Origin: a virus
Reading direction: 5' to 3' (one strand)
Length of the DNA: 27,825 nt
IMG/VR virus record: IMGVR_UViG_3300046820_000168
Span: 1-27,825 of that record
The notes below the pieces were generated by a model, which saw only the letters and a program-made list of their open reading frames with translations, made no database searches and was not told the DNA's origin. How positions within the stretch are numbered: position 1 is the first letter of the stretch; the number at the start of each line of letters is the position of its first letter. The translations under genes were made by a program, and so were the position numbers. Below are positions 1 through 24,046 of the stretch, piece by piece.

Positions 1-1370
1 AATGTAAGAGTTGCTGTTGTACCGTTACCGCTGGCTGACAATGTTGATAGTGTAGGGATGCCTCTTTGGCCGTCGAATTCAACTTGGCTACTAACTACGT
101 CACCGGTTAATTCAAAAACTGTTGAACTAGCAAGTTTACTTGCAGATCCAGATACGTTACCTGTAACACTACCGATCAATGGACCGTAAAAACTTCCGTC
201 TACTCTGCTGGCAATAATTCTATTAATACGCTTTTCAGTTGATCCAATATCTGCGCCAAGGTCAAAGTTAGGTAATAATGCACCACCTACAACAATGTCT
301 TGATCTTCCGCAACAACTAAGTCGCCGCCGACATGAACTGTTCCGCCAATACCTACACCGCCAGTTATAATTACAGCACCAGTTGCAGGACTAATAGAAT
401 CTGTAGCATTGGTAAATTTTGAAATACCGTTAACTGCTAGTGTACCGTTAATATCTACTGTTTCTTGTGGAGCAAAATTGTTAGGGCCTAAACCAATACG
501 TTCGTTACTGTCAACACGCACCATAGTGCGAATTGTTCCATTGTTGTTAACACGGATATCAGTGCTAGAACCAGTTGTCTTATTAAGCAAGACACCAATA
601 GTACCTTCAAGGTTTAAACTAAGTTGTCTGTCTGAACCGACGGAAAGACCTGCACTGTTTCTAATGTCAATACCAAAGTTTGTACTACTCGTAACGTCAC
701 TGCGTAAGAAATTCGAAGCAGGTACTGAAGTAGAACCAACTAAAAGTGCAGAAGCATTTTCTGCAACTCCATAATAATTTTCATACAGGTTATTAAGATT
801 TACACCTGCTTTAATTTCCGGAAATCCTGTGATAACACTCTTAGGAATAAAATCAACTTTAGAGATAATCATCACACGCTCGCCGCCAACGAACTGACTA
901 ACTACTGTTTGGCTGTTGTTCGATGTGTCAACAATAATTTCAGGTTCAGCGCCTGTCTTAGCACCACTTGAAACGTTAGGACCAACTAGAATCCAACTAG
1001 ATCCTGTGAACAAATATAACTGTTGAGTATCAGTGTTTACCCATAAATCGCCAGCAATACTGCTTTCTGACTCAGGAGCATTAGATCCTTTCTTCAATCC
1101 ACCGGCAGCACCCCAACCTGTACCATCATAAACTTTAAGTTGGTTAACGCCTTCTGTGGTATCATACCACAACTGACCTTGAATAGGTGTGCTTGGCTCA
1201 TTAGGGCTGGCAAAATTTTCTAATAAATGAAGTAAGTCTTCGCCGATAATCTGACCATAACCTGTAGTGTTTCTACCTGGAAAACGCAATGAGGTTGTGT
1301 CATCGATTGTGTTGTCTTCGACAGTGATCGATCCGTTTAATTGATTAGTTCTAAAAATTCTATATGACAT
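1..1370 (-). CDS. Tail-fibre-like virion protein, N-terminal 456 residues (3' end outside window)
   Basis: The frame is open from an ATG at 1370 to the left window edge, so the C-terminus is missing. The protein begins MSYRIFRTNQLNGSITVED. Residues of about 60-85 (GQLWYDTTEGVNQLKVYDG) and about 103-128 (GDLWVNTDTQQLYLFTGSSW) are two copies of a 'GdLWyDt...LyvydGssW' module common in phage tail fibres. Further on are Gly/Asn/Thr-rich stretches such as TGGVGIGGTVHVGGDLVV, typical of beta-structured fibre shafts. The start lies two bases after the stop of the preceding gene and has GAGG about nine bases upstream, so it is probably co-transcribed and coupled. I infer a host-contacting fibre or its baseplate connector. 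The receptor-binding tip, if any, would be in the unseen part. Confidence 0.7.
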   Translation of the reverse strand, partial: MSYRIFRTNQLNGSITVEDNTIDDTTSLRFPGRNTTGYGQIIGEDLLHLLENFASPNEPSTPIQGQLWYDTTEGVNQLKVYDGTGWGAAGGLKKGSNAPESESSIAGDLWVNTDTQQLYLFTGSSWILVGPNVSSGAKTGAEPEIIVDTSNNSQTVVSQFVGGERVMIISKVDFIPKSVITGFPEIKAGVNLNNLYENYYGVAENASALLVGSTSVPASNFLRSDVTSSTNFGIDIRNSAGLSVGSDRQLSLNLEGTIGVLLNKTTGSSTDIRVNNNGTIRTMVRVDSNERIGLGPNNFAPQETVDINGTLAVNGISKFTNATDSISPATGAVIITGGVGIGGTVHVGGDLVVAEDQDIVVGGALLPNFDLGADIGSTEKRINRIIASRVDGSFYGPLIGSVTGNVSGSASKLASSTVFELTGDVVSSQVEFDGQRGIPTLSTLSASGNGTTATLT

Positions 1371-1372
1371 GT

Positions 1373-1987
1373 TTAAGCCTCATTGAAACCTGTTAGACTC
1401 TGTACACGAACTGTATAATCAATTTGAATAAGTCTGTTCAAAGATTTCTGTACAGGGTGAAAAATAACATGAGTTAACAGTCTGCCTGTGCCGTTAGGAT
1501 TGTAACTACGCAGTCCTAGTTCATCAAAAACATAAGGACTTTCAGTGTATGTTGCATTATCAAATGCTTCTTGGTCTGCTGGCTCACCGTAGTCTAACAA
1601 ACAAGTAACAACAATGTCTGTATAGTTTGTACCTGTTAAGTGGCGTGTTTCGATCTTATTACGCACTGGGTCAATGTTGTTTGCCGAACGATCATCAACA
1701 ACTTTAGCATAAGTTTCATTGTATAAACTACTGTTAATACCAATAGTGTTAGGAGTCAAATAGGTAATAATTCCTGTTGGATCAACTGTAGTTCCGCCGT
1801 TGCCAAAGACCATCTCGTAGATAAATCCCTTGCCTTCGTTGCCGAGACTTTCTGCAAGACTAATACTCATATTTTCGTAATGAATAGCATTACGTTTATC
1901 GATGGCGATTTCTCCAGTTTCGGGATACCAAATCTTAATGTGTCCTTCTACGTGGAAACCTACGTTTTCATTGGGTGATTTTGTCAT
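1373..1987 (-). CDS. Virion structural protein downstream of the giant baseplate gene (position of T4 gp8/gp9)
   Basis: A complete 204-residue ORF with no signal peptide or membrane segment. I do not recognise a named family with certainty. The composition is that of a compact beta-rich structural protein, for example GKGFIYEMVFGNGGTTVD at about 53-70 and LTHVIFHPVQKSLNRLIQID near the C-terminus. Its place between the giant wedge-type gene and a fibre gene matches where T4 carries gp8-gp9-gp10, so a baseplate periphery or fibre-connector role is likely by context only. The ATG at 1987 has AGG (1996-1998) eight bases upstream, and a late-promoter-like octamer lies at 2007-2014. The gene may therefore have its own late transcript as well as read-through. 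Confidence 0.65.
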   Translation of the reverse strand: MTKSPNENVGFHVEGHIKIWYPETGEIAIDKRNAIHYENMSISLAESLGNEGKGFIYEMVFGNGGTTVDPTGIITYLTPNTIGINSSLYNETYAKVVDDRSANNIDPVRNKIETRHLTGTNYTDIVVTCLLDYGEPADQEAFDNATYTESPYVFDELGLRSYNPNGTGRLLTHVIFHPVQKSLNRLIQIDYTVRVQSLTGFNEA

Positions 1988-2006: not shown

Positions 2007-2014
2007 TATTTATT
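2007..2014 (-). promoter_or_regulatory. Late-promoter-like octamer AATAAATA before the 204-residue structural gene
   Basis: On the minus strand the octamer reads AATAAATA, seven of eight matches to the T4 late promoter TATAAATA. It overlaps the TAA stop of the giant gene. A start site about six bases downstream would give a leader of about 14 bases carrying the AGG ribosome-binding site for the ATG at 1987. The position is right, but the sequence is AT-rich and one mismatch is present, so this is a candidate only. Confidence 0.45.
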
Positions 2015-5000
2015 CCGATAAATCTACGCCCTTAGCGCGGATGAATTTAGCAGGATCGCTTGTAGCATCGGATAATCCAATACCATTTTGTGTCCAAGTT
2101 CTACCAATACGTTTCTGTACAACAATCTTTACACCAGGAGGAGGTGCGTCAGTTAAACGTACATAAGCGCCAACGTTTTTGTTAACAGCAAATTCTGCTT
2201 CTAACATCTTATCTCCGCTTGGGCTATCTTGTCCTAGTGTTTCGTCATAAACTTGTACAGGACTCTTACGTAGTCTGCGGCCACCTACAAACACTTCAAT
2301 GTCCATGCTTTCCCAATATTCATAAGGAATGCTTGTATAGTCAATGACTGTGCCTGTGCCTGTGCCGACTGCTGTTGCTTGGAATGATGCGCCTGGTAAG
2401 TTAGCACCGCTGCCAATTAAACCAAAGTTAGTATCTCCCACAGTACTAATAGTATACCAACGTCCTGGTAGTATATCAGTTACTGGTATAATTCTAGTGT
2501 CTTTATACCAGCCAGTTTCTGTTGCAGGATTTGGTCTAGGTGCAAACGGTAACAATATCTGAACATATTTAATAGCCGCAGGCACTACAACGCTTGTTGC
2601 TGGAATGCTAAATGGAACAGTTTTTGGTGGGTTATAAATTACCAAATCATATGCTCCAACACTCTTTGCTGGGGTAATAAATGTCAATTTAGTTTCGTTA
2701 ATATATGTTGTAGAACATTCTGTGTCACCGACATAAACTTTAACGTTGTCTCTAAATCCTGTTCCTATAACAGTAGTAACTTGTCCGCCTAGAGGGAAAG
2801 CAGTTTGGTTATTAAAGTTGTAGGTAAACTTCTCAACAGTTACGCCTGTGCTATTTGGATAGAACTGGCTGGCTGTTGTGTATCCGTCTGAAACAACTTC
2901 TGCTGTTTGTACTTCGTCCTTGTAAGGAACAGTGTTGATATTGCCTTGATCTCTTACACGAGTACCAACAGTGTACTGGTTCTTAATGCCTGTACCTAAT
3001 GTACCGCGGCGTAATTGACTTAAAATATTTCCAGTCTTCTTTAAGTACTCGATACGTTCTTTGTCAATATAGATTACACCTGGCTCATTCTTTAATGCAT
3101 TAGGTGTTGTTAACCCACTAGCGTCGACTACAGTAATCTTAGCATCAAAACTGTTCAACGGTTCTGCTAGTGTTGTGCTAGTTGAATCATCAATGCGCTT
3201 GTAGACTACTCTGTTTGTCATGTCCTTGAAGATACGGTATCCAAATGCACTACGAGTAGTATTACTGCTGAATACTATAACTTCAATCTCGTTAGTTGAT
3301 AGTAAAGGTCTTACAATTCTAATATACTTTAGATTGTTTTCAAGAACATAGTCAACGTCAGGAACTAACAATTCGCCATCAACTGAGATCCAAACATACT
3401 GCGGAGCAATTGACTGCTTGTCTAATGCTATTCTTCCTGAAGAAAGTTGAGTATACTTCTTATAGTCAACAAGACCTTCTGATACAGTTGAATCAAAAGT
3501 TATTTGATCGTTGAATCTTCTAATATCTAAAATGTCATGGTTATTAAATGTTGTTACATCTATAACTGTAAATGCAGAGTATGTATCTAAGAATGTTATA
3601 CTATTGTTCTCGATAATGTAATTTGCATTTTTAAAGATAGATAATGTTACTTTATCACCGACATTTGCGGCATTACGTTTTAGTTTCAATTCGTTGTTAC
3701 TAGATACCCAGTTCCAATCTTTGGCTCGTTGAATTTCAACGCCGTTGACATACACACGAATATCATCCGGATCCACTGAGTTGTAAGGATAATCGGCTAC
3801 ACTAATTGAATAAGTCCTAGATGTTCCCGCAACATCAAAATAATAATTGTCAATAGACTTTAATAACTTTCCATCTACTACAATAACTACGTTGCTTTCT
3901 AGAGGACTTAGTGTAGCAGGAGGATATTGTAACGAATAGGTATTTGTCACACCATCATGTACAATAGTTTCTCTCTGTACTTTACTAATTGTATTAAAGA
4001 ACCCTTTGATAATTGTAAAGTTAATTATAGAACCCTGAACTGGTGGGCTTGGGAATCTTAAAACAATATTACCAGCATTATCAAATGTGTCGTCTGCAAT
4101 AAATGTTGTCACAGATTCTGGCACACCGTCGATGGTTACAAAGGCAGTATAGTCTTCGTTCCAGCGAGCGGCTGTAACATAGTCAGATGTAGTTCCGTCA
4201 GCAACAAAGAAATCTAAGTCTAAGATTCCTGAGCCGTTTTGACTTAAACTTATAACAGAAATCTCATCGTCAACTGCGGGTGTAATCAACAATCTAACTT
4301 GTTGTTCTTGATAATCAATCTCGTACTCCTCGCCAAGTCTAGCAATTCTGTCATTAATTTTAACAACAACAGATTCGGCAGTACCTGGACGTTGGCCTAT
4401 AGCAAATGCTATATCGTTGGTTGCTGTAACTTTATAGAAACGATTTAAAATGCTCGGTGCACCATCGCTAACTTTATCGTAGACTTGGATGTCAACGCTA
4501 TCTACAATTTGACCAGGAACAACTTCTTCTGGAGCATGGCTAGATGTAGTCGAAACAAATGCATCACCGTCAACGTTAATTGCTTCTGGGTTAACACCTC
4601 TTGCACTAGCATAGGCTAAATCGCCACCGTCTAAATCAACATCAAATGTTTGATCGTCTGGTCTAAAACTACCGTCGCTGGTACTTTCACGCAAGATAAT
4701 CTTGTCACCATTGCTCAACGGAACATCATTAGGTAGAGCAAATACTTGTGTACTTGCATCACCATAAAAACTGTTCATAATAGCATTAGAGTTAGTAATA
4801 GGATCTAATTGATCCAATGCTGTTTGTGCATCATTAACAACTGCTTGTTGATCTGCAACTTCGCCTTGTTTGTTATTAACTGCTGTGGCAGCAATGTTGT
4901 ACTGTGACGTAGCCGATGTTAACGCACTATTTGCGGCTAACACGACGTTGGCTTGCTGAACAACCAATGCTTCAATTTGCATGGCCAAGATCATATTGTT

Positions 5001-8000
5001 ATCTAACAATGCTTGGTTATATTGACCAGTTAAGTCGTCAAGAATACTTTGCTGTAATACAACATTATCTGCGGCATCTTCTTTTGCGGCATTCTTTTCT
5101 GCACGAACTTGAACTAAGATTTCTAATTCTTCTTCTAATGCTGTAAGAGCATTTTGATCTTGTGTTAGAATGTCTTGTGCGGCAGTCACTTGATCGTAGT
5201 TAGGATCATCAATCTTAACAGTGTTCTTATAGACGTTGATTTCTACTCCGTCTGCTGGAACATAGCCAATATCAAGACTTCTGTTTGTGCCGTTACTAAT
5301 AAACAACTTGTCTCTGAATTCAGTGTCAAATGTATCCCATCCACCAACGAACCATGGTAGGGCGTCCCAACCAGAACCGATTTCAAAACTCAGACCAGTT
5401 ACTTCTACACCGCCGTAGTCAACACCTTGCATTAATTGTCCAAGGTCCTTGCCTAGTTGTCCGCTAGTTGGAGCATAATAGAATTGAATTCTATCTGCGG
5501 CTGATAACAGATCAATGTTCTTTTTATAAGATATAGAAATAGTACTTTGATTTGCAGGTGCGTTTACAAAAGTAATTCTAGCAAAGTATCGAGTGTATGA
5601 CGCAGAAGTATCTTTGACATTAACTATTGTAAAATCACTGTCAAGAATATCAATACCGTTAACTGAAATTACATAAGTGTTAGGACGGATATCTGCAGGC
5701 CACTTTAAATCGTAGCGTGTTCTAGAACCTGTTCCAGTGAACTGCTGAACAACAGTTAAAGAAGAAATTTGATACTTTGGAGAAATTCTATCAAACTTAA
5801 CTCCAACTTTATTAGAACGTACTAAACCTCTTTCTAATTCGATACTAGTTTGAGCCGATACTCCGTCAGTGTCTAAGCCACCGTCCAGTATAACTGTAGG
5901 TGTTGTTAGGTACCCTTCACCAGGATCTGTAACAATAATCTTAATAAGTTTTCCTTGACTTACATAAGCAGTGGCTTGTGCAGGTACAGAACTTATGCCA
6001 GTAATAATAACTTGAGGTGCAGTCTTGTATCCTGAACCGCCGTCTCGAACGTTAATAGACTTAACTGAGTGTCCTACATTATAATACCAAGAACTATATG
6101 GCTCTTGAAGAATAATATTGTTATCAACAACTACTACACCGTCTTTGACTTGTGTAGAGATAGGAGAAATTAAACCAGTATCGGAATTATAAACTGCTGG
6201 CAGGTCGAAGTCGGCAACTAGTGTTCTTGATTGTTCAACTTTTTCATATGCGCTGACAAATTCTCTAATCTTACTACGATAAGGTTTAACTTCTCTAATG
6301 TAGTCTTCGTAACTTTCTAAGTTATCGTTTTGATAGGTAATCTTTTGTTTGAGTTCGCCAAGGTTGTGTTTACTCTTAACAAAACTTGTCTTAAATGCCC
6401 AGTCAACAAACACTTGTTCTGCAAATACGTAACGTAGACTTGCAAAGAATAGTTGGTTGTATTCGTTAGTTAACTGGTCAACAAAAATGTTGTTCTTAAT
6501 TACATCAACAATAATGCGTAATTCTTCTTTGGGTTCATCATCAAACACATCCACGTCAAAGAACGGACCGTCGTAGCCAACGTTACTGTTCTTAAACTGA
6601 TAAATGTTTTGATTAAGTTGCAAGGTACCGTTCTGGCGGCCGATGACTTTAAAACTACTGTTAATGTCTAGTAAGTTAGTACTGTCAGTGTTTTTCTCTA
6701 ACAACATCCAACCAGAAGATCCAACGTTTTTAATTTTTACAACATCGCCGATATCTAAAGTTAATCCAGCAAGTTGATAAGAAAAATCAATAGACGCATC
6801 TACTTTAGTGAACGAACTGTAACCAGTAGCATACCAGTCAACAAGTGTCCAGTACTTGTTAACGTCATAGGTCTGTACAAGGTCTTTGATCCAAACTTTG
6901 TTAGTTGTGTCCCAAATATACAGTGCCCACTTACCGCCAGAATTTTCATCTGTTCTTACTAGAGCAGTAAAAGGTCTAACTGTCAGTGTAGTACTTGGTC
7001 GATATCCTTCGCCAGGATTATCAACATTCACTTTAATAATTTCACCCTTAATATTAATTACTGTACTAATCTTGGCGCCGGTGCCAATACCTGATACTTG
7101 AACATAAGGTCCTTTGCGTGGCTTTCCTAGACTTTCGTCGTAACTCAAGTCAACATAATTTCTACCAGAGTCAATGATGTTAACACGGATAATTCTTCCG
7201 TTTTCAATTACTGGTTCTAATTGTGCAGTACGGCTTGGCGCAACGTTAATAAATCTTAATTCAGAATATAAATCTCTAACTGCATCATACTTTAGAGAAT
7301 ATACACTTGGCTCTTGATCTTTTTCGTATAGTTTAGAGATGTCAATGTCGTCAACAATATTGTTCTTAATTAGAACAGAGTTAACACGTTCAACAAATTG
7401 TTTTAGTGCTTCAAGTCTGTTAACAAACATGCTTTGGCGTGGCTTGCTTAGTATGCCGTACTTTAACTTCAATGGAAGTTTTGGATCTGGTACAGGGTTT
7501 CCTAAATCGTCAACGCCGATTAAACTTTCAAGCCATTTCTTTTCAATGTACTTGTTAAGTTGTTTTGTTTCATCACCTTCAGACAGTAACTGATAATGGC
7601 TGTGAATATTCAACTCAGTATTATCAACAGTCCAGTAACGGAAGTTAATTGCAACTCGTCTGTCTGCAATTAAGTCTTTACAGTTGACTAAACTAAATTG
7701 TGTTGGGCTATGCAATACTGCATATCTAATGCCTTTGCTCTTAGGATCTGCAATAAGCAATGAAACATCGTTGGCTGAGTAACTTCTGCCGTCAATGTCA
7801 GGCACTGTAACTTTATTCTTTACCCAGAAATAGTAAGTTGTAGATACACTTTGAGAAATTGTATCGTAAGTTTGTGTAATAGAGTATGCAAGGTCTCCGT
7901 ACTTACTCTGTCCACTGATACCAAGTGCTAGTCCTTCTTCTGTATCGGCAAGACTATCCCAAACACTTGGCTTATAACGTGAACTTACCCATTCGTAGAC

Positions 8001-11000
8001 TGCAACTTCTTGGTCATTGAATCTGTTATTCCAACTGTTAGATTTGAATACTACAGAGCCTTGATATGTGTTAATAAATTTAGCACTCGACAAGTCCCAC
8101 CATAGTCTACCTACTTGGGCTCCGTTCCATCCTGTTAACTGATCAACGTTGACACTTTCTGTACCAACAATATATGTTGCAGGATCATAGTAAGTTTTGT
8201 AACTTAATTCTTGTTCTGCAATACCTAAAATTTTTCCTTGTAAAGGATCAACAAAATCTAGATATTGGATAACACTACTTTTATCTGTGTCGTACAAGAA
8301 AATAGATTTAATTTTCTTTGCATCAACAGACAAATCGGGTACTTGATGTCTACTCCAACTCTTAGTTGGGCTTGTAAATTCATAAACACCGCCACGCTCT
8401 CTGCCTGGATCGCCGATGTAAATTGATTTTACAAAAGATAGTGATTGACCGTATTTTAAACCAAATGCTCCGTCTACTTCTAGAGTTTCAGCAAACACAT
8501 ACTTTGTATCGTATTTGTCAAATAAGAATACTGCACCAGCGGCTGGCTCTGCATCAGTGAATCGTGTGTTTGTTAAATCAAACACTGTTGTGTTACTGTC
8601 AAATGTAGTTGCTTTGTCGTGTACTATACCTGAAGCATACACCGACAACTGGTCCCCTGCAAGATTAAATTCTACTTGTGCGCCAAATTTTCCTGCAGAA
8701 TTATTATTCGGTGTTGTTATTAGATATCGAGGAACAAAATTAGTTCCAACCAAATTAAAGATTATTACGCCACCTTGTTCTGAATTTAATCCAGAGTACC
8801 CAGGTGCACCTACTGCTAATGTTGTGCCGTCTTGTGTTAGTGCAATGCTTTCGGCAAAGTTAGATCCTGTAGAAATAACAATGTCTGTGTTAGGAACTAG
8901 ATCACCAAATGTAACAGTATCTATTAAATCTAAACTATTAGATTCTACTGAGAATACTTTAACAGATTCATCAGTAAATGACACTGCAACAGATTTTGCA
9001 CTTGTAGAAACATCTGCAATTTCTATTTGTGTAGAAGTTTCAACAATACTGTCTAACAACTCGCCTGTTAGACTGAATAAGAATATTGCTGGCGATGTAA
9101 CGCCAACTGTTCCCTTTGAAACTACTACTAAAGAACTATCTGTAAAGTAAACTTTTGATCCGAATAGTTCGTTGGCTCGACGTGTTGCGGCTGTAAGATT
9201 AGTTGTAAACTGGAAAATATTTCCAGCGTTTAGAGCAAAAAGTGATACATGACCTTGGTCAGTGTCTGACTTAGGAGATGCTACTGCTAGTATATTTCCA
9301 TCTTTAGATAGTGCTACAGCCGAAGCAAATGAGCCGTTAGTTGTAGTAAGTCCTGCTGAACCTGCGTTGATAGATTCTGCAAATGCCCAGTTAAATGTAG
9401 GAGCAGGTCTTGTAAAATACAATACTTGATTGTCGGAGTTCAAATTAGCACTTACTGCCATTACTCGTTCATTTTTACTAACTGACAATGCTTGACCAAA
9501 GTTGTTACTTTCGTCTAAAAGTTTTCTTAGAGAATAGTTATTATTATATTGCCACACTGACCAGTTATTATCTGCACCGTCAATCCATACTAGATCTCCG
9601 TTGTTTTTAATAGGTAGATTTACTTCATCTAATCTATCAATAGAAGCAGTTAGTGTTTGACCGTTAAACAATCTTTCTTTAATTCTCAGAGAACTAAACT
9701 TGTAAACTATAAAAGTATTACCAACTGTTGCTAATAATATATCATCTTCAGTTAGATCGCCTGCGGCAAATTCAATGTAGTTGTATCCTACATTAGTAAT
9801 CTGATATACGCCGTCAACAACTGTTGTTGAGTTGATACCAATGTATTCGCCGATTTGTAAATCTGCATCTCTGTTAGATGCAAATGTTAATCGAATAGTT
9901 TCTTCGTCTGGTAAGGTAGCACTGGCTAACTTTTGTGCTAGTGCTGTAAATCTATAGATACCCCAAGAGTTTTTATCGTTACCGATCCAAATTCTAGTAC
10001 CTTCTGTCAATAGTGCAAAATCTAAAGAAGAGATATCGTCTTTAGTATTGAAGACATAATCAACATCGTCTCTTCTCACATAACCTGAAGTTTCGACAAA
10101 ATAGTCACCGTTAGGATTTATAGGGAAAGGTGCGTGATTATAATTCTCGCTAGGCACATATACTTCGTGTGGAAGTATTCTGTAAACAAAATCATTTAAA
10201 TCTGGATCAATGCTAGAAACTAATTCAAATGGTTGAGGGTTGATCAACATCTTAGTTTCGTTGATCTTATATTCAACTTCTTCAAAAGCAGATGTTGCAC
10301 CGTATGTTCCTAGACGGATGGCCCATTCTTCATAAAATTCTAAACTGTCTTTATCAGCAGAACTTAATGGATCAAATAACTTTGTCAATACATTTTGTGT
10401 GCCCTTGTCACGGATCATACCTTGATAGAACTTGTATTGTGCAATATCGTCATTGATGATGTTTTCTAGATAATCTCTGCGCTGATAACCGATTAGGTGT
10501 TTAGCAATAGTCTGCTGGTCAACGTCAAAACTATCTGTGTCTAGATCGTAGAAATCAAAGAATTGATTTGACTTGTAGTCCCAGTTAGGTACTAACTTAC
10601 TTTCTGGCTTGTTTGGAAGTCTATTCCATTGAGAGTCATCAAACTCTTCTGTACCTGTTACATTGCTCTTGGCAGAATAATAGAATTCTTTGTACTTGAC
10701 TGTATCACTTAGTGAATAATCTTTCCATTGTTTCCATTCTGTTACATCTGCACGGTCATAGATGAAACCCGGAATGTTGAAGTCACCTTGCCAGTTACTT
10801 GTTCTATAACCTACTGCTTTGATACGTTCTTGACGATATCCCTGAACTTGGTCATAGATGATATCGTTGAATACTGTAACGTTATCTAAAATAATAACGT
10901 GTTCTTTTTGTACTAAGTTTAGTGTAGCATGATAAACACCGTCGGCACTGTCTCTTGGACGTAGCACAAACAGGTTACCTTTACGGATAGTGTTTACAAA

Positions 11001-14000
11001 TAGCGGATCAAATAAATTTCCGTCTTGTTTATAGATGCTGTATTCGTAGAAACTATCATAGATATTGTCTACCACAGAAGACGGTTTAGTAAATCTAACT
11101 TCGTCTGCACCTGGGCTTAAACTGATTACAGAACCAGCACTCCAGTTTTGTGTAGTCCAGAAGGCAAATTCTTTAATTGCAGTACTCCAGTCTGTTACTG
11201 TTGCTAAAGTAGTATTAAAGTACTCAAAGTCAAAACCTTGAGTAACTAACCACTTTCCGTAACCTGCTAGGAAGTCACTGACTTCTTGAACTGTTTTTAA
11301 TTCTGAACCGTAGTGTAATGATGATTCCTCAGTTGAAAATGCACTGCGAGAAATAATTTGTCGACCGCCAGTAATTGGTAGTTTAGGTAGTTTTGTAAAA
11401 TACTTTAATTCAAACGCTTGGCCGCTAGTATGGCTAGTTGTTACTCTATAATAGTTGTTATCATAGCGTACAACTTGAGTTTTGTTATAAAACTTTTCTC
11501 TATCCCAATCAACGAACGGCTCACTGATACCGCCAATAGTAATTACAGGATCACTGGCTGTCTCTAATGCCTTGTAATACTTAAATTCTGGTGTGACTAA
11601 ATTGTAACCTCTAACTACAAATCCTTGTGTTTGTTTTTCAATAATAACACCACTGTAGTCTATACTCAACACAGGTGTACTTGTATTAAGAATAATCTTG
11701 TAGTTTTCAAAAGGAACAAATATGTTCTTTTGATTTAAAGGACTACGGCTGTCTAATACTAGTTTAAATTTTTCCTTGGTAATAAATCCGCCAACTTTTG
11801 TTGAAAGATTTACTTGAAGTCTTGAAAGATTTTGCTTGTAAATGTCAAAACTATCTTGGCTACGTGAAATAGCATAGTTTTGAATATAGTTTACTAGACC
11901 GCTAGTATATACTCTAGAAGTATCTTCTAATGTATTAGGAAATTCTATATTTTTATGAGTGAAGCGAGTTAATCCGTTTGTAGTTTTGTAGACAATTTGA
12001 CCTGTAAAGTCGCGGATCTGTCTTGCTCGGTCATAGATTGTAGCAAACGCTTTTGCCGGTCTTAGTAGTGTAATACCTGTGATTAAACTGAACGGATACT
12101 CACTGCTACGTCTCCAAGCATTTTCAATAGGTGCTCTGTCACCAAAACTAAATTCTGCTTCGGCAAGATAGAAAACATAATCTCTAACTGAGTTAGACTC
12201 CAACGGTGAAAGTAAATTGCCGCCGTCGTCAACTGGTAATTGTTGAAGAATAGTAGGTCTTGCAAACTTAGGTTTAATTTCTACAAGTTTACCTGGCTCT
12301 CTAATAGCACCTTGAGCAATGTCGTTCCAAAGCACTAAGTTATCTCTAGTGTAAGGAGCAGGTCCGTAGACAGTTTCCCACCATGTTGGTTGTTCGCTAA
12401 ATCCTAACATTTCCCATGGATGACTGTGAGGTCTGTCGGTGTCATACATGTGTGTGTAGATACCTCTCCAGTGACCCGGAATGCCAGTACCGTCAGGGGC
12501 AGAGAAATTTTTGTAGTTATAGGTAAAACTATTGTCTGCATCGAAGAATGTATGCTTGGTATAGTCTTCGGAAATAAAACGACTCCACTTTAAAAAGTCT
12601 TGTCTAATAGTATTATCTAAAGTAGTTTTACTTAAACCTGTGTCTCTAAAATAACCGCTGACAAAATCAGTAAGATCGAACAACTCAGTGTTGTATTTCA
12701 TCTTAATGTTGTTATAGATTCTTCTTTCTAATTCTAAAATTAAGTCGTCACGGTAATCACCAAATGATGCAATAACACTACCGTCGTGGCCTTGAATAAC
12801 ATTAATTGGATCAACTAGAGTGTCGTCAAGATAAATTTTTGGTTCAAATACTGGATACAATCCTAACTTGCTAGGAGTTGGCGGGACATAACAGCCGTTG
12901 GTGTTTTCATACTGGACTATCTTTAACTCGTCGCCGGTTACTATAGGTTTTAAAATTCTAACAAAGTTAACATTAAAAAATTCATAGTCGCGGCCGTGAA
13001 CTAGTTGTTCTTCATTTAGATAAACCAATACGGCTTTATCACTAAGTGTGGTTAAGTCAAAATCAAATGTCAACGGATACTCTGTAATAGAGTCATCAAT
13101 TACTTCTTGGTCGAAAATAAAACTTCCGCCAAACGGTACCATATCTGTAAAGAAGAATGGCATTGTATTTGTCTTGTCTTTGACTAGTTCTTTTAGGATC
13201 AAATCTAAATGAATTCTAGTTATGCCGTCAAATCCGTAACTTGTTGCTACACGAATAAAGTTTCGTTTAAACTTACTGTATTCGTCCTTGGCGTATCGTA
13301 ACGCTTTAACAACATTGTGTTCTTTATCAGTAAGATGATAAATCACAGGAGTTAAAGGACCACTATGTTGAATAATCTTTTTACCGTAAGCAGATAATCC
13401 TGCAAGGTCTCGTAAATTACCAGTGCCGGGCACTGAGCCAACAAAATCTTCTCTGTCATTGGCTATTGTTTTTAAATGATTAATAACTTCGCCTAGTGTG
13501 CAATCTTCCAATGCTAAATTGTTTGGATTACTTTCTAAGTTAGAAGGAATTTCATAATAACCGTTGTCATTCTTTTTAGCGTTACTTGATGTCTTAAGGA
13601 AAATACTGTCAGTTTCTGTTAAGTCTTTTGTTAACTGAACATAAGCAACATCATTCTTTGTAACAATGTCATAGTCAGTTAAACTAGAAAGAATTTTTCC
13701 GTTAACAAAAACTTTAACTTCAAGGTCGTCTAATAATGCACTGCGAGTATAAACATCAACAGGGAAGAAGTTAGTTCTATTGCTGCCGTCAAATTGACGA
13801 ACTACATATTGCTTACTAGGTGCTACTGCTTTTTCCCATCCATTAACAAATGTGTAGTTAGTTAGACTAGAAGATTTTTTCAAGTAACCTTTGTCTAATG
13901 TTATTGTAACAATATCGGCTAACTTTTTATAAATGAAAGAATCTTTTTGTAAATTAAAATCAAAAACAATGTCGCCGATGTTACCAATGTTTTTGTAACT

Positions 14001-15803
14001 GATGCCGAATCCTAATTCAGTGTCAATGTTTGTACCTAACTTATAACCAAAAATTCTTGTACCGGCAAATGTTGTTCCTTGGTATGTTGCTTCGTCACCG
14101 TAACTTAATCCGTTCTCGTCAAAGACATCAAACAAAGGCGCTTGATTAACAGTATCTTTAGACTGTGCTTCAAGCCACACTGTACCATTGTAATAGTACA
14201 TTTTACCTTTGTTAGCAACACCATCTAAAGAAAGAACTGTTTCTCCTTCAACTGGATTAGTGTCACTTTCTTGGATCAAAGTTATACGCTTAGTGCCTAA
14301 GTGTGTTACAAAAGCAACTCTAAAAATTCTACCGTTAACTTGTACATCTGGGTCTGCGGTGAACAATACTCGCATACCTTCTAAAAGATCTACACCGTCT
14401 ACGTTGTAACCTATGCTTCCTTCAATTGTGCTGAATACATCTCTTGTAAAGGAATCAACTAAATTAACGTTTTGTTTAAATTGTGTTCCAAACTTCCAAA
14501 GTTTTAAATCTGATTCAAATTCGATAATTGGTCGTGTAGCACGTTGACTCTGGTCTAATACTGTAGGAATGCCATTAACTTGAGAAGCAACGTCAATGAC
14601 ATCTTTATGGAACCAACGGTTAAATCTAGTCCAAGGATTTAAATCTTTACTTGAACGATTAATTGTAATATATTCCTTGTTTAAAGGAATGTTAGCAGAA
14701 ACATCAAACCCTTGGCTATCAAATTGTTCGTTGTCAAATTCTACTACAGCAGAAGTAGAATATGATGATGGTGTTGCTAGGTCACTTTCTTTAACTAGTT
14801 TGATTGCGCTGCCAACACCTTCAATATACCAATTTCCTGTAGCATATTTGTTAGGTGTAACTCTGCCTTGGAAGAAAACTTTCATACCATTAGACAATTG
14901 AATGTCGTTGGCTGTTGTGTAATCTTTCTTTCCAATAATTTCCTTTTCTACGTCAATGCTAGATGCATCTGTAATGTCGTAGACTTTAAAGATGCCGCCG
15001 GTATTAACATCTGATTGGCTTACATAATAAATGATATTAGGAGCATCAATAGGGACTGTAAATTCAATCACACCTTTTTCAACGTATTGATTTCCTGTGC
15101 TTACACCAGTAGTATAGAAGTAACTGTCACCTGTTTCTCTTACAGTTTTAAATGCAATACCGTAGTTAGGGCAGTCAACTTCAAAACGATATGTTTGGCC
15201 ACGGTAAAGTTTTAAGTTAGGATTACGTGTAAGTCCGTCCGGTGTAAACAAATAGGCTCTGTTGTCAACATCGTCAACAATGCTTACGGTATAGGTACTT
15301 GTAATAGTATCTGCTTGTCCAGCAACTGGTATGCTAACTGGGCCACCTGGCAACCAGTAGTAATCGCGATAGTTTACAAATTTGTCCCAATCAAAGTGCG
15401 GATTCCAAGCATAAAATTCTTGACTATTAATCTTGTTATGATCTGCGTCGTCAACGTTAAAGAACGCTAACTGGTTAACAAAGTCAGGGTAATCTTTAAA
15501 GAAGGTTACATTGTCTAAATCGTCTTTAATAATTACTGCTGGTTCAAATTGATAATCTTCTCGTTGCTTAGTTGCACCTTCAAGGTACTTGTCTGAAGCA
15601 CGATAAGGTTCAAATGTTTTTCTACCAATGAAGGCACTGACCTTCTCAACATCTCCTTCGGAGATCATTTGATCTATCGTTGCATTTAAGAACTTTTGAT
15701 TAGCACTAGTTCTAAAATACTTAGGTAAGAAACCAATAGATGTTTTGTCTGAGGTGTCTGATATTGGCAGACTTGGGTCGAATTGATCGTTATTAAATGC
15801 CAT
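2010..15803 (-). CDS. Giant 4597-residue multidomain baseplate/tail protein at the T4 gp7 locus
   Basis: One uninterrupted frame of roughly 0.5 MDa; T4 gp7, at the same place after gp6, is about 1030 residues. I see no clear sequence match to gp7, so the link is positional. Modules by approximate residue: conserved-looking N-terminus (10-160, GFLPKYFRTSANQKFL); two 'L.nGMkVfF' modules (about 295-340 and 470-515); His/Trp-rich block (1122-1148, DRPHSHPWEMLGF); two CBM5/12-like modules (1432-1475, 1690-1735); seven FG-GAP-like propeller blades (2082-2492); four 'DxGxxY' motifs (about 2870-3310); coiled coil (3537-3668); about ten 'V.VNG..L...DY' beta modules (two at about 690-970, the rest beyond 3370); IPT/TIG-like domain (4325-4392); a 'PGRWYTI...TNFGLIG' fibre module (4439-4489). 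The ATG follows the gp6 stop by two bases with no Shine-Dalgarno, suggesting reinitiation. Likely role: wedge periphery or host adhesion. Confidence 0.85.
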   Translation of the reverse strand: MAFNNDQFDPSLPISDTSDKTSIGFLPKYFRTSANQKFLNATIDQMISEGDVEKVSAFIGRKTFEPYRASDKYLEGATKQREDYQFEPAVIIKDDLDNVTFFKDYPDFVNQLAFFNVDDADHNKINSQEFYAWNPHFDWDKFVNYRDYYWLPGGPVSIPVAGQADTITSTYTVSIVDDVDNRAYLFTPDGLTRNPNLKLYRGQTYRFEVDCPNYGIAFKTVRETGDSYFYTTGVSTGNQYVEKGVIEFTVPIDAPNIIYYVSQSDVNTGGIFKVYDITDASSIDVEKEIIGKKDYTTANDIQLSNGMKVFFQGRVTPNKYATGNWYIEGVGSAIKLVKESDLATPSSYSTSAVVEFDNEQFDSQGFDVSANIPLNKEYITINRSSKDLNPWTRFNRWFHKDVIDVASQVNGIPTVLDQSQRATRPIIEFESDLKLWKFGTQFKQNVNLVDSFTRDVFSTIEGSIGYNVDGVDLLEGMRVLFTADPDVQVNGRIFRVAFVTHLGTKRITLIQESDTNPVEGETVLSLDGVANKGKMYYYNGTVWLEAQSKDTVNQAPLFDVFDENGLSYGDEATYQGTTFAGTRIFGYKLGTNIDTELGFGISYKNIGNIGDIVFDFNLQKDSFIYKKLADIVTITLDKGYLKKSSSLTNYTFVNGWEKAVAPSKQYVVRQFDGSNRTNFFPVDVYTRSALLDDLEVKVFVNGKILSSLTDYDIVTKNDVAYVQLTKDLTETDSIFLKTSSNAKKNDNGYYEIPSNLESNPNNLALEDCTLGEVINHLKTIANDREDFVGSVPGTGNLRDLAGLSAYGKKIIQHSGPLTPVIYHLTDKEHNVVKALRYAKDEYSKFKRNFIRVATSYGFDGITRIHLDLILKELVKDKTNTMPFFFTDMVPFGGSFIFDQEVIDDSITEYPLTFDFDLTTLSDKAVLVYLNEEQLVHGRDYEFFNVNFVRILKPIVTGDELKIVQYENTNGCYVPPTPSKLGLYPVFEPKIYLDDTLVDPINVIQGHDGSVIASFGDYRDDLILELERRIYNNIKMKYNTELFDLTDFVSGYFRDTGLSKTTLDNTIRQDFLKWSRFISEDYTKHTFFDADNSFTYNYKNFSAPDGTGIPGHWRGIYTHMYDTDRPHSHPWEMLGFSEQPTWWETVYGPAPYTRDNLVLWNDIAQGAIREPGKLVEIKPKFARPTILQQLPVDDGGNLLSPLESNSVRDYVFYLAEAEFSFGDRAPIENAWRRSSEYPFSLITGITLLRPAKAFATIYDRARQIRDFTGQIVYKTTNGLTRFTHKNIEFPNTLEDTSRVYTSGLVNYIQNYAISRSQDSFDIYKQNLSRLQVNLSTKVGGFITKEKFKLVLDSRSPLNQKNIFVPFENYKIILNTSTPVLSIDYSGVIIEKQTQGFVVRGYNLVTPEFKYYKALETASDPVITIGGISEPFVDWDREKFYNKTQVVRYDNNYYRVTTSHTSGQAFELKYFTKLPKLPITGGRQIISRSAFSTEESSLHYGSELKTVQEVSDFLAGYGKWLVTQGFDFEYFNTTLATVTDWSTAIKEFAFWTTQNWSAGSVISLSPGADEVRFTKPSSVVDNIYDSFYEYSIYKQDGNLFDPLFVNTIRKGNLFVLRPRDSADGVYHATLNLVQKEHVIILDNVTVFNDIIYDQVQGYRQERIKAVGYRTSNWQGDFNIPGFIYDRADVTEWKQWKDYSLSDTVKYKEFYYSAKSNVTGTEEFDDSQWNRLPNKPESKLVPNWDYKSNQFFDFYDLDTDSFDVDQQTIAKHLIGYQRRDYLENIINDDIAQYKFYQGMIRDKGTQNVLTKLFDPLSSADKDSLEFYEEWAIRLGTYGATSAFEEVEYKINETKMLINPQPFELVSSIDPDLNDFVYRILPHEVYVPSENYNHAPFPINPNGDYFVETSGYVRRDDVDYVFNTKDDISSLDFALLTEGTRIWIGNDKNSWGIYRFTALAQKLASATLPDEETIRLTFASNRDADLQIGEYIGINSTTVVDGVYQITNVGYNYIEFAAGDLTEDDILLATVGNTFIVYKFSSLRIKERLFNGQTLTASIDRLDEVNLPIKNNGDLVWIDGADNNWSVWQYNNNYSLRKLLDESNNFGQALSVSKNERVMAVSANLNSDNQVLYFTRPAPTFNWAFAESINAGSAGLTTTNGSFASAVALSKDGNILAVASPKSDTDQGHVSLFALNAGNIFQFTTNLTAATRRANELFGSKVYFTDSSLVVVSKGTVGVTSPAIFLFSLTGELLDSIVETSTQIEIADVSTSAKSVAVSFTDESVKVFSVESNSLDLIDTVTFGDLVPNTDIVISTGSNFAESIALTQDGTTLAVGAPGYSGLNSEQGGVIIFNLVGTNFVPRYLITTPNNNSAGKFGAQVEFNLAGDQLSVYASGIVHDKATTFDSNTTVFDLTNTRFTDAEPAAGAVFLFDKYDTKYVFAETLEVDGAFGLKYGQSLSFVKSIYIGDPGRERGGVYEFTSPTKSWSRHQVPDLSVDAKKIKSIFLYDTDKSSVIQYLDFVDPLQGKILGIAEQELSYKTYYDPATYIVGTESVNVDQLTGWNGAQVGRLWWDLSSAKFINTYQGSVVFKSNSWNNRFNDQEVAVYEWVSSRYKPSVWDSLADTEEGLALGISGQSKYGDLAYSITQTYDTISQSVSTTYYFWVKNKVTVPDIDGRSYSANDVSLLIADPKSKGIRYAVLHSPTQFSLVNCKDLIADRRVAINFRYWTVDNTELNIHSHYQLLSEGDETKQLNKYIEKKWLESLIGVDDLGNPVPDPKLPLKLKYGILSKPRQSMFVNRLEALKQFVERVNSVLIKNNIVDDIDISKLYEKDQEPSVYSLKYDAVRDLYSELRFINVAPSRTAQLEPVIENGRIIRVNIIDSGRNYVDLSYDESLGKPRKGPYVQVSGIGTGAKISTVINIKGEIIKVNVDNPGEGYRPSTTLTVRPFTALVRTDENSGGKWALYIWDTTNKVWIKDLVQTYDVNKYWTLVDWYATGYSSFTKVDASIDFSYQLAGLTLDIGDVVKIKNVGSSGWMLLEKNTDSTNLLDINSSFKVIGRQNGTLQLNQNIYQFKNSNVGYDGPFFDVDVFDDEPKEELRIIVDVIKNNIFVDQLTNEYNQLFFASLRYVFAEQVFVDWAFKTSFVKSKHNLGELKQKITYQNDNLESYEDYIREVKPYRSKIREFVSAYEKVEQSRTLVADFDLPAVYNSDTGLISPISTQVKDGVVVVDNNIILQEPYSSWYYNVGHSVKSINVRDGGSGYKTAPQVIITGISSVPAQATAYVSQGKLIKIIVTDPGEGYLTTPTVILDGGLDTDGVSAQTSIELERGLVRSNKVGVKFDRISPKYQISSLTVVQQFTGTGSRTRYDLKWPADIRPNTYVISVNGIDILDSDFTIVNVKDTSASYTRYFARITFVNAPANQSTISISYKKNIDLLSAADRIQFYYAPTSGQLGKDLGQLMQGVDYGGVEVTGLSFEIGSGWDALPWFVGGWDTFDTEFRDKLFISNGTNRSLDIGYVPADGVEINVYKNTVKIDDPNYDQVTAAQDILTQDQNALTALEEELEILVQVRAEKNAAKEDAADNVVLQQSILDDLTGQYNQALLDNNMILAMQIEALVVQQANVVLAANSALTSATSQYNIAATAVNNKQGEVADQQAVVNDAQTALDQLDPITNSNAIMNSFYGDASTQVFALPNDVPLSNGDKIILRESTSDGSFRPDDQTFDVDLDGGDLAYASARGVNPEAINVDGDAFVSTTSSHAPEEVVPGQIVDSVDIQVYDKVSDGAPSILNRFYKVTATNDIAFAIGQRPGTAESVVVKINDRIARLGEEYEIDYQEQQVRLLITPAVDDEISVISLSQNGSGILDLDFFVADGTTSDYVTAARWNEDYTAFVTIDGVPESVTTFIADDTFDNAGNIVLRFPSPPVQGSIINFTIIKGFFNTISKVQRETIVHDGVTNTYSLQYPPATLSPLESNVVIVVDGKLLKSIDNYYFDVAGTSRTYSISVADYPYNSVDPDDIRVYVNGVEIQRAKDWNWVSSNNELKLKRNAANVGDKVTLSIFKNANYIIENNSITFLDTYSAFTVIDVTTFNNHDILDIRRFNDQITFDSTVSEGLVDYKKYTQLSSGRIALDKQSIAPQYVWISVDGELLVPDVDYVLENNLKYIRIVRPLLSTNEIEVIVFSSNTTRSAFGYRIFKDMTNRVVYKRIDDSTSTTLAEPLNSFDAKITVVDASGLTTPNALKNEPGVIYIDKERIEYLKKTGNILSQLRRGTLGTGIKNQYTVGTRVRDQGNINTVPYKDEVQTAEVVSDGYTTASQFYPNSTGVTVEKFTYNFNNQTAFPLGGQVTTVIGTGFRDNVKVYVGDTECSTTYINETKLTFITPAKSVGAYDLVIYNPPKTVPFSIPATSVVVPAAIKYVQILLPFAPRPNPATETGWYKDTRIIPVTDILPGRWYTISTVGDTNFGLIGSGANLPGASFQATAVGTGTGTVIDYTSIPYEYWESMDIEVFVGGRRLRKSPVQVYDETLGQDSPSGDKMLEAEFAVNKNVGAYVRLTDAPPPGVKIVVQKRIGRTWTQNGIGLSDATSDPAKFIRAKGVDLSE
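4800..5195 (-). other. Coiled-coil segment inside the giant protein
   Basis: Residues about 3537-3668 are rich in Ala, Gln, Glu, Asn and Leu with heptad-like spacing and almost no Gly or Pro (for example ALTALEEELEILVQVRAEKN and AATAVNNKQGEVADQQAVV). The surrounding protein is beta-rich. It follows the strand VEINVYKNTVKIDDPNYD, which looks like the first half of a repeated beta module, so the helix pair may be an insertion protruding from that module. Confidence 0.7.
8330..9560 (-). other. Seven-blade FG-GAP-like beta-propeller inside the giant protein
   Basis: Residues about 2082-2492 of the giant protein carry seven repeats. Most open with F-G/A-x-x-(L/V)-x-(L/V/F) and end in a hydrophobic strand such as GGVIIFNL or GGVYEF. 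Readable blade starts are FGQALSVSKNERVMAVSA, FASAVALSKDGNILAVAS, FGSKVYFTDSSLVVVSKG, IADVSTSAKSVAVSFTDE, FAESIALTQDGTTLAVGA, FGAQVEFNLAGDQLSVYA and FGLKYGQSLSFVKSIYIG. The pattern is that of FG-GAP/integrin-type or WD-like propellers, and seven is a normal closed-ring number. Such domains usually mediate protein or glycan binding. The fold is inferred from the pattern, not computed. Confidence 0.6.
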
Positions 15804-15805
15804 AA

Positions 15806-18800
15806 TTATGCGCTTTGAATACCATTATTATTGTTCAATGATGTTGACACTGAACCACTAGCACGAATTCTTGTTGCTGTGATTTCGCTGATGATTTCAA
15901 CGTCATTAACTGTTGCACTACTGATAAAAATTTCATCAGCATTAGACTTGATTTCGTACAAACTACCAAAACTTAAATTTTGATCCTTAGGAACAATTAC
16001 AATGTTGCTAATATTAGGAGCAACTTTGTTCATGATATAAGTTGTTAATTCTGTAAAGAAGAATGTATCACCGAACTCCCAATTTTCAATTGCAAAAAAT
16101 TCGTTGATTGCATTAATTACAGATAACTTAATGTCGCTGTCACTGACTGCAACACTACCACTCTTAACTACTTTAAAAGTTGCTTGTAAAGATAGAGGCG
16201 CTGTTGAGCCAAATACTTCTTTGTATTTTACAGGATGGTAGATTACTTCATCACTGACTGCTTTAATTTTTTGTAGTTTAGATCCAAAGTTAACAAACAA
16301 TGCATCACTGCTAGGTGGAAGCGGCTTGCTGTCAACTTCTTTTCTAATCCAACGACGATAATCTGTATCGTAAGACTTAGTCAACACATAAACATCCATA
16401 ATGTTTGTTGCACTTGGGTCTAATCTTGCACTACTGTCTGCTGAATGAACATACTGGAACTTTAGATCTCCGCGACCAAAGAAACCTCTATATTCGTTAG
16501 TAACTTGGAATTGTGGTAGACCGTTTCTAACAAATTTCTTAACTAGTTTTTCATCTAACAAATAAACTAACTGACCATCAGCAATACCTGTTTGCAGACT
16601 TGTATCGATGTCAGTTTGAGTATCGTATGTTAAAATTAAATCGTTGTTGTTTGAAATATAATAGTAATCAGTTACACCGTCAATACCTGTTCGACGTTGT
16701 TGGAAAATTATTTTCTTAGTTGTTTCCAAGTCTGGCTCAACTATACGATCGAAAATTTCTGGATCGTCAATGACTCCATCTTCGTCACGATCTGTGAAAG
16801 TAATACTAATTTTCTTACTGTCAATGTATCCGTCGGCGCCTTTGAACTCATCAATAATTTCCCAATCATAGTCTTTACCTAAAGGAAAATCATCTAACGG
16901 CTTTGTGTTGATACCTAGAACTGCAACTTTGTCTTTGACAATTTTACCAGTGTTAGTATCGTAAATCTTGTCGGCGCTGTCGTAGAAGAATCTAACTTCT
17001 TTAACGCTTTCAAAAACGTAACGAGTTGAGCGGTGTGTTACTGTATAAACTTCACCGTCGGTTTCAAATAAAATCAACCAACTAGCATCAAGTTGCTGGT
17101 TACTGATGTCACCAGTCTTACCTAAACTAAAGTTAGAAATTTTATCTATGTTAGACTCTGTGACAATCTTCCATGAGTTATCATTAGTGTCGTAACGCAA
17201 GCCAAACTCTTTCTGTGCAAAAATTAAATCAAAAATTCTAGTTCTTACACTGTCTGAAAATTCTTTAACAAACTTAGGAATGATACTTTGTAATTCTGCA
17301 CCAGTTGGCAGAACTTCGTTGAGTTTTACAGGGCCTTCGCCGTTGGCTAAAACATTATCTGCACCGTAGACACCACTACCTGTAATGTTTACAACTTTAG
17401 TCCACACATAACTCTTCTCACCTTGTTTAACAGGATCAGCATTGGCTATTAAATTATTTTTAGTGTCAAATGCTCTATATCCTGGTGGAGGAACAAATTT
17501 TAATAACGAGTCATTGATAATAAATCTTAAGTTAGAACTTGTAAACGCACCTAATGTTCTTGGTTCGCCTGTGGTGTTGTTTGACAAGTACCCTGTTGAC
17601 AAGTTAGTTGCCTTAGAAATTCTGTTCCATGCTAAGAAGGGTGTACCAAGATTAATATCTGGAAAATTATCTAGATAGAAATCATAGATAGTTTTCTTCT
17701 TAAGGATAGGTACAATTTGATTTGTTACCACTCCCTCAATTTCGCTTTTTGTAGCAAAACTAAAATTAAATTTTTCTGTAAAGTTTTCTTTATAGATAAT
17801 ACCGTCTGTGCCAAATAAATTTGTACTGCTGTATTTTCCAGTAGCATCTTTAAGATCAAAATATCTGCTGATTCCAGAACTTACTCTGTTAACTGCTTTA
17901 ACTTTTAAAATTTCTTGACTGATACTTAATGGTAAGACATTATAGTCTTCACCGGTGATCATTCTATTTTGTGTATAGTATGTTCCTGGTGCGTTTTGTT
18001 TAATAGAATCAGAAGTTTCTGCAGAACTTGCATTTGTTACAGTATATTTTAAACCTAATGTAACTGTAAGTGTTTCTTCTCTACCACGGCGACTGATATA
18101 AGGAATGTCAATAGTAACACTCTTAATACTGCTAGGACTAATCTTATATGTTAAGCCGTTGCTGACTCTATAGTAAACTTTAAAATTACCTTGAGGTAGA
18201 TCACCAAACACACCGTCTGAGAACACTAGTCTAACTCTATCACCGGTGCGTGATTGCACAGCATAGATCTTTCTATTGCCTTTCTGTGTAGAATTATAAA
18301 TGATGTTGTTGCCAGTTAATGCTTCAACTTGTGTCCAAGCAGTTGATTCAATACCAATAGCATCTAGACCGTATAACCAAACGTCTGTGTTATTAATTCC
18401 AGTTGCCTCTAAATCGACTGCTTCGTTAGGATTTGGTCTTGCAACATTAAAAGTACCTTGCTGTAGACTACCTTGACGGAAGTGTACAAAAAATCCTGTG
18501 TTACTACTTGCTGGGCCACCGCCGTCGTCTCTGTACAAGAATGCTAGGTTGTTACCTGGAAATGGGGCTTCTTCATAAACTGTAGTAGAATTTTTAAACA
18601 CAGATGAAACAATATCAAATTCCATGTTGCGGCCGTCAATGTTTTTATTAAAACTATATGTTGGCACTTCTGTGTTTGTAGCATTAAAGCGATATTGTTC
18701 AGTTGTAACACCGCTAAGGACAGCACGATCTTGTGGGCGACCAAACTGAACTGTTTCGCTCATTGATGCATTAATAACTTTAATAAACTGCTCATACCAG

Positions 18801-19252
18801 TTATTATTACTTGGGTCGTTCCATAGGATTGTTTGGTTGGCTAGGTTTCTACCGTTACTATCTATGACTTCTTCTGTGGTAGTAATAGCATTAAATTTTA
18901 AAAGGCCGCTTGCAGGAATGTTACGCTTAGGGTTGTAGGATAGTAGACGTGCTAGACGTAGAACGCTTTCACGACGTTCTGCTAGTTCAAGGAAGTTGTC
19001 GCGGGCATTTAAGTCAAATCTAAATGCTAGATTTTGACCCAAAAATGCAATAAGATCGATAAGGGCCAAGTACTCACTTGACTCAATATAATCGTTGAAA
19101 TCTTCTGGATAATTCTCACGCAGGTACGCAATCATCGTACGGCGTAAGTTGTCAAAGTCGTAACTTTGAAAGTCTGCGTTGCGGAAACTCTGGTAGATTT
19201 TCTTCCAGTCTTCTGCGGCAATTAAGCGATTTTGTCTATCTATGCTACCCAT
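15806..19252 (-). CDS. gp6: Baseplate wedge protein gp6 (enlarged)
   Basis: A homologue of T4 gp6, which dimerises to link baseplate wedges into a ring around the hub. The N-terminal 120 residues are characteristic: an acidic/aromatic start, then YLALIDLIAFLGQNLAFRFD and a 'R.ARLLSYNPKRNIPASG' stretch. FSDGVFGDLPQGNFKVYYR at about 345-362 and ITGEDYNVLPLS at about 430-441 fit the baseplate-J-like core. At 1148 residues it is far longer than T4 gp6 (about 660). The extra C-terminal part includes a perfect EF-hand-like loop at 821-832 (D, D, D, G, I, D and E in the canonical places). GAGGG lies six bases before the ATG, with a late-promoter-like octamer at 19270-19277. The gene sits between gp25 and the giant gene, as 25-6-7 would in related phages. 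Confidence 0.9.
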   Translation of the reverse strand: MGSIDRQNRLIAAEDWKKIYQSFRNADFQSYDFDNLRRTMIAYLRENYPEDFNDYIESSEYLALIDLIAFLGQNLAFRFDLNARDNFLELAERRESVLRLARLLSYNPKRNIPASGLLKFNAITTTEEVIDSNGRNLANQTILWNDPSNNNWYEQFIKVINASMSETVQFGRPQDRAVLSGVTTEQYRFNATNTEVPTYSFNKNIDGRNMEFDIVSSVFKNSTTVYEEAPFPGNNLAFLYRDDGGGPASSNTGFFVHFRQGSLQQGTFNVARPNPNEAVDLEATGINNTDVWLYGLDAIGIESTAWTQVEALTGNNIIYNSTQKGNRKIYAVQSRTGDRVRLVFSDGVFGDLPQGNFKVYYRVSNGLTYKISPSSIKSVTIDIPYISRRGREETLTVTLGLKYTVTNASSAETSDSIKQNAPGTYYTQNRMITGEDYNVLPLSISQEILKVKAVNRVSSGISRYFDLKDATGKYSSTNLFGTDGIIYKENFTEKFNFSFATKSEIEGVVTNQIVPILKKKTIYDFYLDNFPDINLGTPFLAWNRISKATNLSTGYLSNNTTGEPRTLGAFTSSNLRFIINDSLLKFVPPPGYRAFDTKNNLIANADPVKQGEKSYVWTKVVNITGSGVYGADNVLANGEGPVKLNEVLPTGAELQSIIPKFVKEFSDSVRTRIFDLIFAQKEFGLRYDTNDNSWKIVTESNIDKISNFSLGKTGDISNQQLDASWLILFETDGEVYTVTHRSTRYVFESVKEVRFFYDSADKIYDTNTGKIVKDKVAVLGINTKPLDDFPLGKDYDWEIIDEFKGADGYIDSKKISITFTDRDEDGVIDDPEIFDRIVEPDLETTKKIIFQQRRTGIDGVTDYYYISNNNDLILTYDTQTDIDTSLQTGIADGQLVYLLDEKLVKKFVRNGLPQFQVTNEYRGFFGRGDLKFQYVHSADSSARLDPSATNIMDVYVLTKSYDTDYRRWIRKEVDSKPLPPSSDALFVNFGSKLQKIKAVSDEVIYHPVKYKEVFGSTAPLSLQATFKVVKSGSVAVSDSDIKLSVINAINEFFAIENWEFGDTFFFTELTTYIMNKVAPNISNIVIVPKDQNLSFGSLYEIKSNADEIFISSATVNDVEIISEITATRIRASGSVSTSLNNNNGIQSA

Positions 19253-19262
19253 ATATGGCCCT

Positions 19263-19282: not shown

Positions 19283-19302
19283 CGAAAAAGTGGGTAGTTA
19301 AT

Positions 19303-19737: not shown

Positions 19738-19745
19738 ATGTTTAT

Positions 19746-24043: not shown

Positions 24044-24046
24044 GGA

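Follow-up and report, generated by a model that had tools for sequence, protein, structure and literature searches.

What kind of protein stands in the place of gp7 in a T4-type baseplate gene cluster when a single reading frame there runs to 4597 residues? The question is raised by a complete IMG/VR viral fragment of 27,825 bases, referred to here as the window. Its giant ORF (2010..15803, minus strand) encodes a gp7-position protein of 4597 aa (~515 kDa), and the start codon lies 2 bases past the stop codon of a gp6-like gene. T4 gp7, the baseplate wedge initiator, likewise sits directly after gp6, but at 1032 aa it is 4.5 times shorter. An earlier reading of this DNA from its letters alone (the sequence-only reading) had described a single-frame ORF of 4597 residues, and it is present exactly at those positions, on the minus strand, which that reading left unstated. 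Its direct succession to gp6 was likewise borne out, with a PHROG “baseplate wedge subunit” encoded immediately upstream. It is probable that the giant is a baseplate wedge protein of a contractile tail, standing beside gp6 in gp7’s place and doing the job of T4 gp7. A wedge role is supported by the position after gp6, by the conserved gene order, by the intact and constrained reading frame, and by the presence of relatives’ counterparts in virions.

The genes upstream of the giant place it in a baseplate context. On the same strand, the gp6-like wedge gene (15806..19252, 1148 aa; phrog_10646 E=0, phrog_219 3e-21) is preceded by a gp25-like wedge gene with a PHROG/Pfam match (19303..19737), a gp5-like hub gene (19746..21113), a virion structural protein with a baseplate hub and tail-lysozyme match (21113..24043), and a gp53-like wedge gene (24047..24349). 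The window thus holds a T4-type baseplate cluster of gp53, gp5/hub, gp25, gp6 and the giant, and the gp7 position that had been claimed within such a wedge/hub cluster stands. Pfam PF21379, used as a check on gp6, had no match anywhere. Beyond the gp53-like gene lie one further structural protein and then genes on the opposite strand that encode a late sigma factor and proteins like SbcD and SbcC. A scan of bacterial genomes for a hint of the host returned none.

An ORF of this size invites the suspicion of an assembly or frame artefact that fused several genes, for which the extreme length is the sole support. Full-length relatives already refute it, and the probability left to it is negligible. 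A scan with residues 1721-1920 of the giant found at least 595 related loci in viral contigs, and 44 of the best 80 among these hold complete ORFs of 4472-5260 aa in an unbroken frame, while isolates carry versions of 3323-4555 aa. Compared with two relatives at 74-76% identity, the giant has a dN/dS of ~0.07 over 4590 codons; each 460-codon slice for which the ratio could be calculated also gives a low value, and constraint is weakest in the slice that starts with aligned codon 1840, near the accessory region described below. These ratios are approximate because dS is near saturation. Together, the complete one-frame relatives and the low dN/dS put the ORF far beyond chance. The number of loci makes a giant wedge-position protein a common feature of environmental phages, although its annotation reads only “hypothetical” or “structural”.

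The closest known system is that of the Rak2-like jumbo phages, whose giants (phrog_10938; CBB_236, phAPEC6 gp245, 121Q gp582, Atu_ph07 AUZ94962.1) share with the window protein the post-gp6 position and a collinear series of conserved blocks at lengths of 3323-4555 aa. The window giant matches phrog_10938 over four stretches (E=0, 1093 bits) and the individual Rak2-like giants in BLASTP blocks down to 1e-153, at 24-31% identity to the isolates. A giant directly follows a gp6-type gene in Atu_ph07 (4449 aa), Phosso (4555), PAC2 of the PA5oct group (3857), 121Q (3323), CBB (CBB_236, 3340) and XaC1 (3332), and the order gp25-gp6-giant is kept in all six. The giant of Vibrio 2.275.O (3771 aa) is preceded by an unassigned 3.9-kb gene, and that of SCTP-2 (3807 aa) by an unlabelled gene of 9.3 kb. 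This gene of Salicola phage SCTP-2 encodes 3096 aa (segment coordinates 5630-14920), so that the gp6 place, too, may be taken up by a giant protein there. Unlike the Rak2-like giants, the window clade has added a cupredoxin-like domain, a TIG domain and a coiled-coil-like insertion, and its accessory region differs.

Virion mass spectrometry of a related phage, proposed by the sequence-only reading as a check, exists for two of these counterparts. CBB_236 was found in purified virions with 21 peptides (PMC5259590), and phAPEC6 gp245 (381.9 kDa), equated here with the giant by size and position, yielded 17 virion peptides and adjoins gp244, a “baseplate wedge” protein (PMC7247149); virion presence is shown in relatives only. 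The authors of the Atu_ph07 study list gp181 and gp182 as baseplate proteins (PMC6102473), and from adjacency gp181 would be the giant. The authors of the CBB study oriented their genomes by the largest ORF, for which the passages concerned state no function (PMC5259590). Sequence search found no solved structure of a relative, and the literature on Rak2-like tails and baseplates yielded only a 25-Angstrom phAPEC6 tail (PMC7247149). PHROGs assigns the wedge-position giants phrog_10938, phrog_4406 and phrog_701 to “head and packaging”, and the gp7-type protein of HTVC008M (I899_gp055) bears the annotation “head closure Hc2”; these labels look wrong because the gene context is that of a baseplate.

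Half of the residues of the window giant fall in blocks common to eight isolates with different hosts, the hosts of the block-sharing phages being Agrobacterium, Sinorhizobium, E. coli, Pseudomonas, Pectobacterium, Xanthomonas, Salicola and Vibrio. The blocks extend from residue 18 to ~3841, so that conservation goes well beyond a short N-terminal anchor. All features of the protein given here lie on the minus strand. The N-terminal block (aa 18-146; 15366..15752), with a helix at 33-47 and low AlphaFold confidence, is followed by a cupredoxin-like fold (aa 165-280; 14964..15311; 2dv6_A, Z 10.6, rmsd 2.5 A over 100 residues), an insertion present in the window clade and much shorter or absent in the Rak2-like isolates. 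Two long conserved blocks come next (aa 382-881, 13161..14660; aa 972-1435, 11499..12890), and at the edge of the second lies a small CBM5/12-like (chitin-binding type 3) domain (~aa 1428-1474; 11382..11522). Its Pfam match (PF02839, E=0.004) is below the cut-off of that family, and its structure matches include a baseplate chain of phage Milano and chitin deacetylases (Z ~7, 45 residues).

The block at aa 1743-1956 (9936..10577) is predicted to be helical, is modelled with low pLDDT when alone, and includes the 100 residues with the highest conservation in the whole protein (1751-1850). Within it lies the motif FYQGMIRDKGT (aa 1792-1802; 10398..10430), for which the block is called the KGT segment here; the pattern FYxGxIxxKGT occurs in 78 of the best 80 of the at least 595 environmental loci, and this or a near form is found in 9 of 9 full-length proteins. 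The variable accessory region follows (aa 1957-2481; 8361..9935), spanning 102-1411 aa in relatives and holding a sub-threshold FG-GAP-like Pfam match at aa 2312-2348. Conserved sequence resumes at aa 2482-2831 (7311..8360), 3092-3212 with the motif EVKPYRSKIRE (6168..6530) and 3756-3841 (4281..4538), and GSGY-type motifs occur at aa 2880-2945 (6969..7166) and 3256-3320 (5844..6038). An Ala/Gln-rich insertion at aa 3540-3665 (4809..5186), judged by eye to be probably a coiled coil, is found in a minority of relatives only. Towards the C-terminus, a small domain at aa 4187-4273 that ends in RRGTLGT (2985..3245) is shared with the PA5oct-group giants at 45% identity, and an IPT/TIG domain (aa 4334-4392; 2628..2804; Pfam PF01833 E=4e-9) is a clade-specific insertion. 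The strongest length differences among relatives fall in ~1950-2480 above all, in 3540-3665 and in 4300-4500. Blocks shared across many hosts and interrupted by variable insertions argue against a fibre and for a conserved scaffold that carries exchangeable modules. The “many repeat modules” seen earlier reduce to a few GSGY-type motifs, the TIG domain, and weak CBM5/12 and FG-GAP matches; the description was overstated, and self-BLASTP of the giant gave no internal repeat at E<1e-3.

AlphaFold models were made without partners for residues 1-960 (mean pLDDT 76) and 961-2010 (mean pLDDT 73). Structure searches with these slices, in line with a further check proposed at the outset, recognised the inserted folds. 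T4 gp7 itself was absent from the structure matches shown for aa 1-2010, a result to be read with the low pLDDT of the key segments and their modelling in isolation. Residues 1-125 and the helical KGT region are of low confidence although they are well conserved, as would perhaps fit segments that need a partner. Cupredoxins and laccases were the top Foldseek matches of residues 1-960; an oxidase reading was rejected, as they reflect a single inserted domain and the overall TM-scores are low.

Whether the giant descends from gp7 was approached through profile comparisons. Against a gp7 core profile, windows of the KGT segment rank 1 and 2 of 112 at E 0.0075-0.0088, values that are not significant since unrelated windows score 0.011, close to the best of them. 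A separate comparison gave 0.0024 for the KGT segment and, against the N-terminus of cyanophage gp7, 1.5e-4 for region ~4180-4300, where the control comparison of T4 with cyanophage gp7 gave 5e-9; the ~4180-4300 match seems to reflect a small insert common to both proteins, ending RG..GT, and not the core. Windowed comparison with thin target profiles gave no support for the N-terminal LP-helix or the C-terminal HP-GF motif of gp7, and the N-terminal profile had no match in the genomes of T4, KVP40-like phages or cyanophages. The Pfam gp7 domains PF21428, PF21427 and PF21456, together with PF23786, have no match in the window, but this test lacks reach because the full S-PM2 protein and the first 2600 aa of P-SSM2 gp7 fail the first three, the T4 domains, as well, and T4 fails PF23786. 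In the same way, the lack of a PF09684 (Tail_P2_I) match in the giant is uninformative, because T4 and cyanophage gp7 are also missed. The sequence-only reading would have been undermined by a separate gp7 in close relatives; none was found in seven related jumbo genomes with the T4 gp7 profile phrog_964, which finds T4 and P-SSM2 gp7 but misses the S-PM2 and HTVC008M proteins at E<=10, so that a diverged copy would escape it. Overall, descent from gp7 is somewhat likely but unproven.

That the gp7 locus can encode a giant protein is established for T4-type cyanophages. T4 gp7 matches phrog_2885, a “baseplate wedge subunit” family of 4179 positions, and phrog_17744, which ties T4 gp7 to the post-gp6 proteins of P-SSM2 (5195 aa), S-PM2 (3048) and HTVC008M (1016). 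In P-SSM2 the order is gp25-gp6-gp7-gp8, with the gp7 annotation already present, and in S-PM2 it is gp25-gp6, the structural protein of 3048 aa, an extra ORF and gp8. The P-SSM2 protein and the extent of phrog_2885 show that the size of the window giant is not unusual for its kind. The Kyanoviridae giants (P-SSM2 PSSM2_111, S-PM2p084; phrog_2885, phrog_701, phrog_4406) are similar to it in size and place and share GSGY-type motifs and a possible small domain with it; unlike the window relatives they have no BLAST-level similarity to it, and no cyanophage is among the matches listed. In P-SSM2 gp7 and S-PM2p084 (segment coordinates 9006-24593 and 7073-16219) Pfam recognises a YHYH domain (PF14240, E 1e-24 and 1e-27). 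That this domain is shared with cyanophage gp7 was considered and rejected, the motif not being found in the window family. BFVD gives the name “YHYH domain” to two of the closest structural matches of the window protein, both from uncultured phages.

An unrelated protein might also have taken gp7’s place, the core function having passed to an enlarged gp6 or to some other, unrecognised protein. The giant carries no significant gp7 signature, the gp6-like protein has 1148 aa against 660 in T4, and in SCTP-2 the gene right before the giant is itself very large, all of which such a replacement would accommodate. It is nevertheless unlikely, since the place of the giant matches that of the recognisable giant gp7 of P-SSM2 and S-PM2, and the KGT helical motif of its best-conserved segment ranks first against the gp7 core. 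A main role as a tail fibre or host-range appendage on the baseplate is less probable still. The binding-type modules (CBM5/12-like, TIG, cupredoxin-like, GSGY motifs) and the 102-to-1411-aa range of one region speak for it. Against it, half of the length is conserved among phages of unrelated hosts, the gene is located in a wedge/hub cluster, the long tail fibres of RaK2 have been assigned elsewhere (gp526-534; PMC10253068), and the slice under least constraint is the one around the module region. No fibre family is among the PHROG/Pfam matches of the giant, the fold searches covering aa 1-2010. Of the interpretation first offered, the gp7 position holds, whereas the “host-range device rather than wedge core subunit” is not supported, half of the residues lying in host-spanning blocks while only inserted modules vary; the host-range idea fits those modules at most.

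For the giant as a wedge protein, a T4-like arrangement can be proposed. In it, the N-terminal segment and aa 1743-1956, the helical KGT segment, would pack against gp6 within the wedge core in the manner of T4 gp7, and the remaining conserved blocks would form an enlarged wedge body; each baseplate would probably have six copies of the protein, the number known for T4 gp7. Inserted into this body would be the cupredoxin-like and CBM5/12-like domains, the GSGY motifs, the variable region of ~100-1,400 residues (1957-2481) and the TIG domain, and these modules, which differ between lineages, may sit on the rim as decoration, support adjacent parts or make contact with the cell surface. A more specific version, offered tentatively and with rather low probability, is that in the Rak2-like lineage and its very abundant environmental relatives an insertion of ~1,600 residues came to separate the first helix of the gp7 core from the KGT segment and the core grew to 3,300-5,300 residues, parallel to an independent growth of cyanophage gp7. 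If so, the wedge would carry a large multi-domain outer structure from one chain. Giant gp7-position proteins were already known; this family stands out by its abundance, by the presence of relatives’ proteins in virions and by a structure still to be described. With a place in the baseplate, one of the largest phage proteins gains a testable role, and the question arises why two T4-type lineages have giants at this one wedge locus.

Downstream of the giant, a conserved ORF of 204 aa (1373..1987, minus strand) has counterparts of similar size that follow the giant immediately or at a short distance in Atu_ph07, PAC2, Phosso, SCTP-2 and Vibrio 2.275.O. Its identification as gp8 found no support, with an hhalign E of 0.41 and no phrog_977 match in the window. 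The structural protein that follows on the same strand (3..1370), cut by the window end, occupies the place of the PAC2 gp10-like gene.
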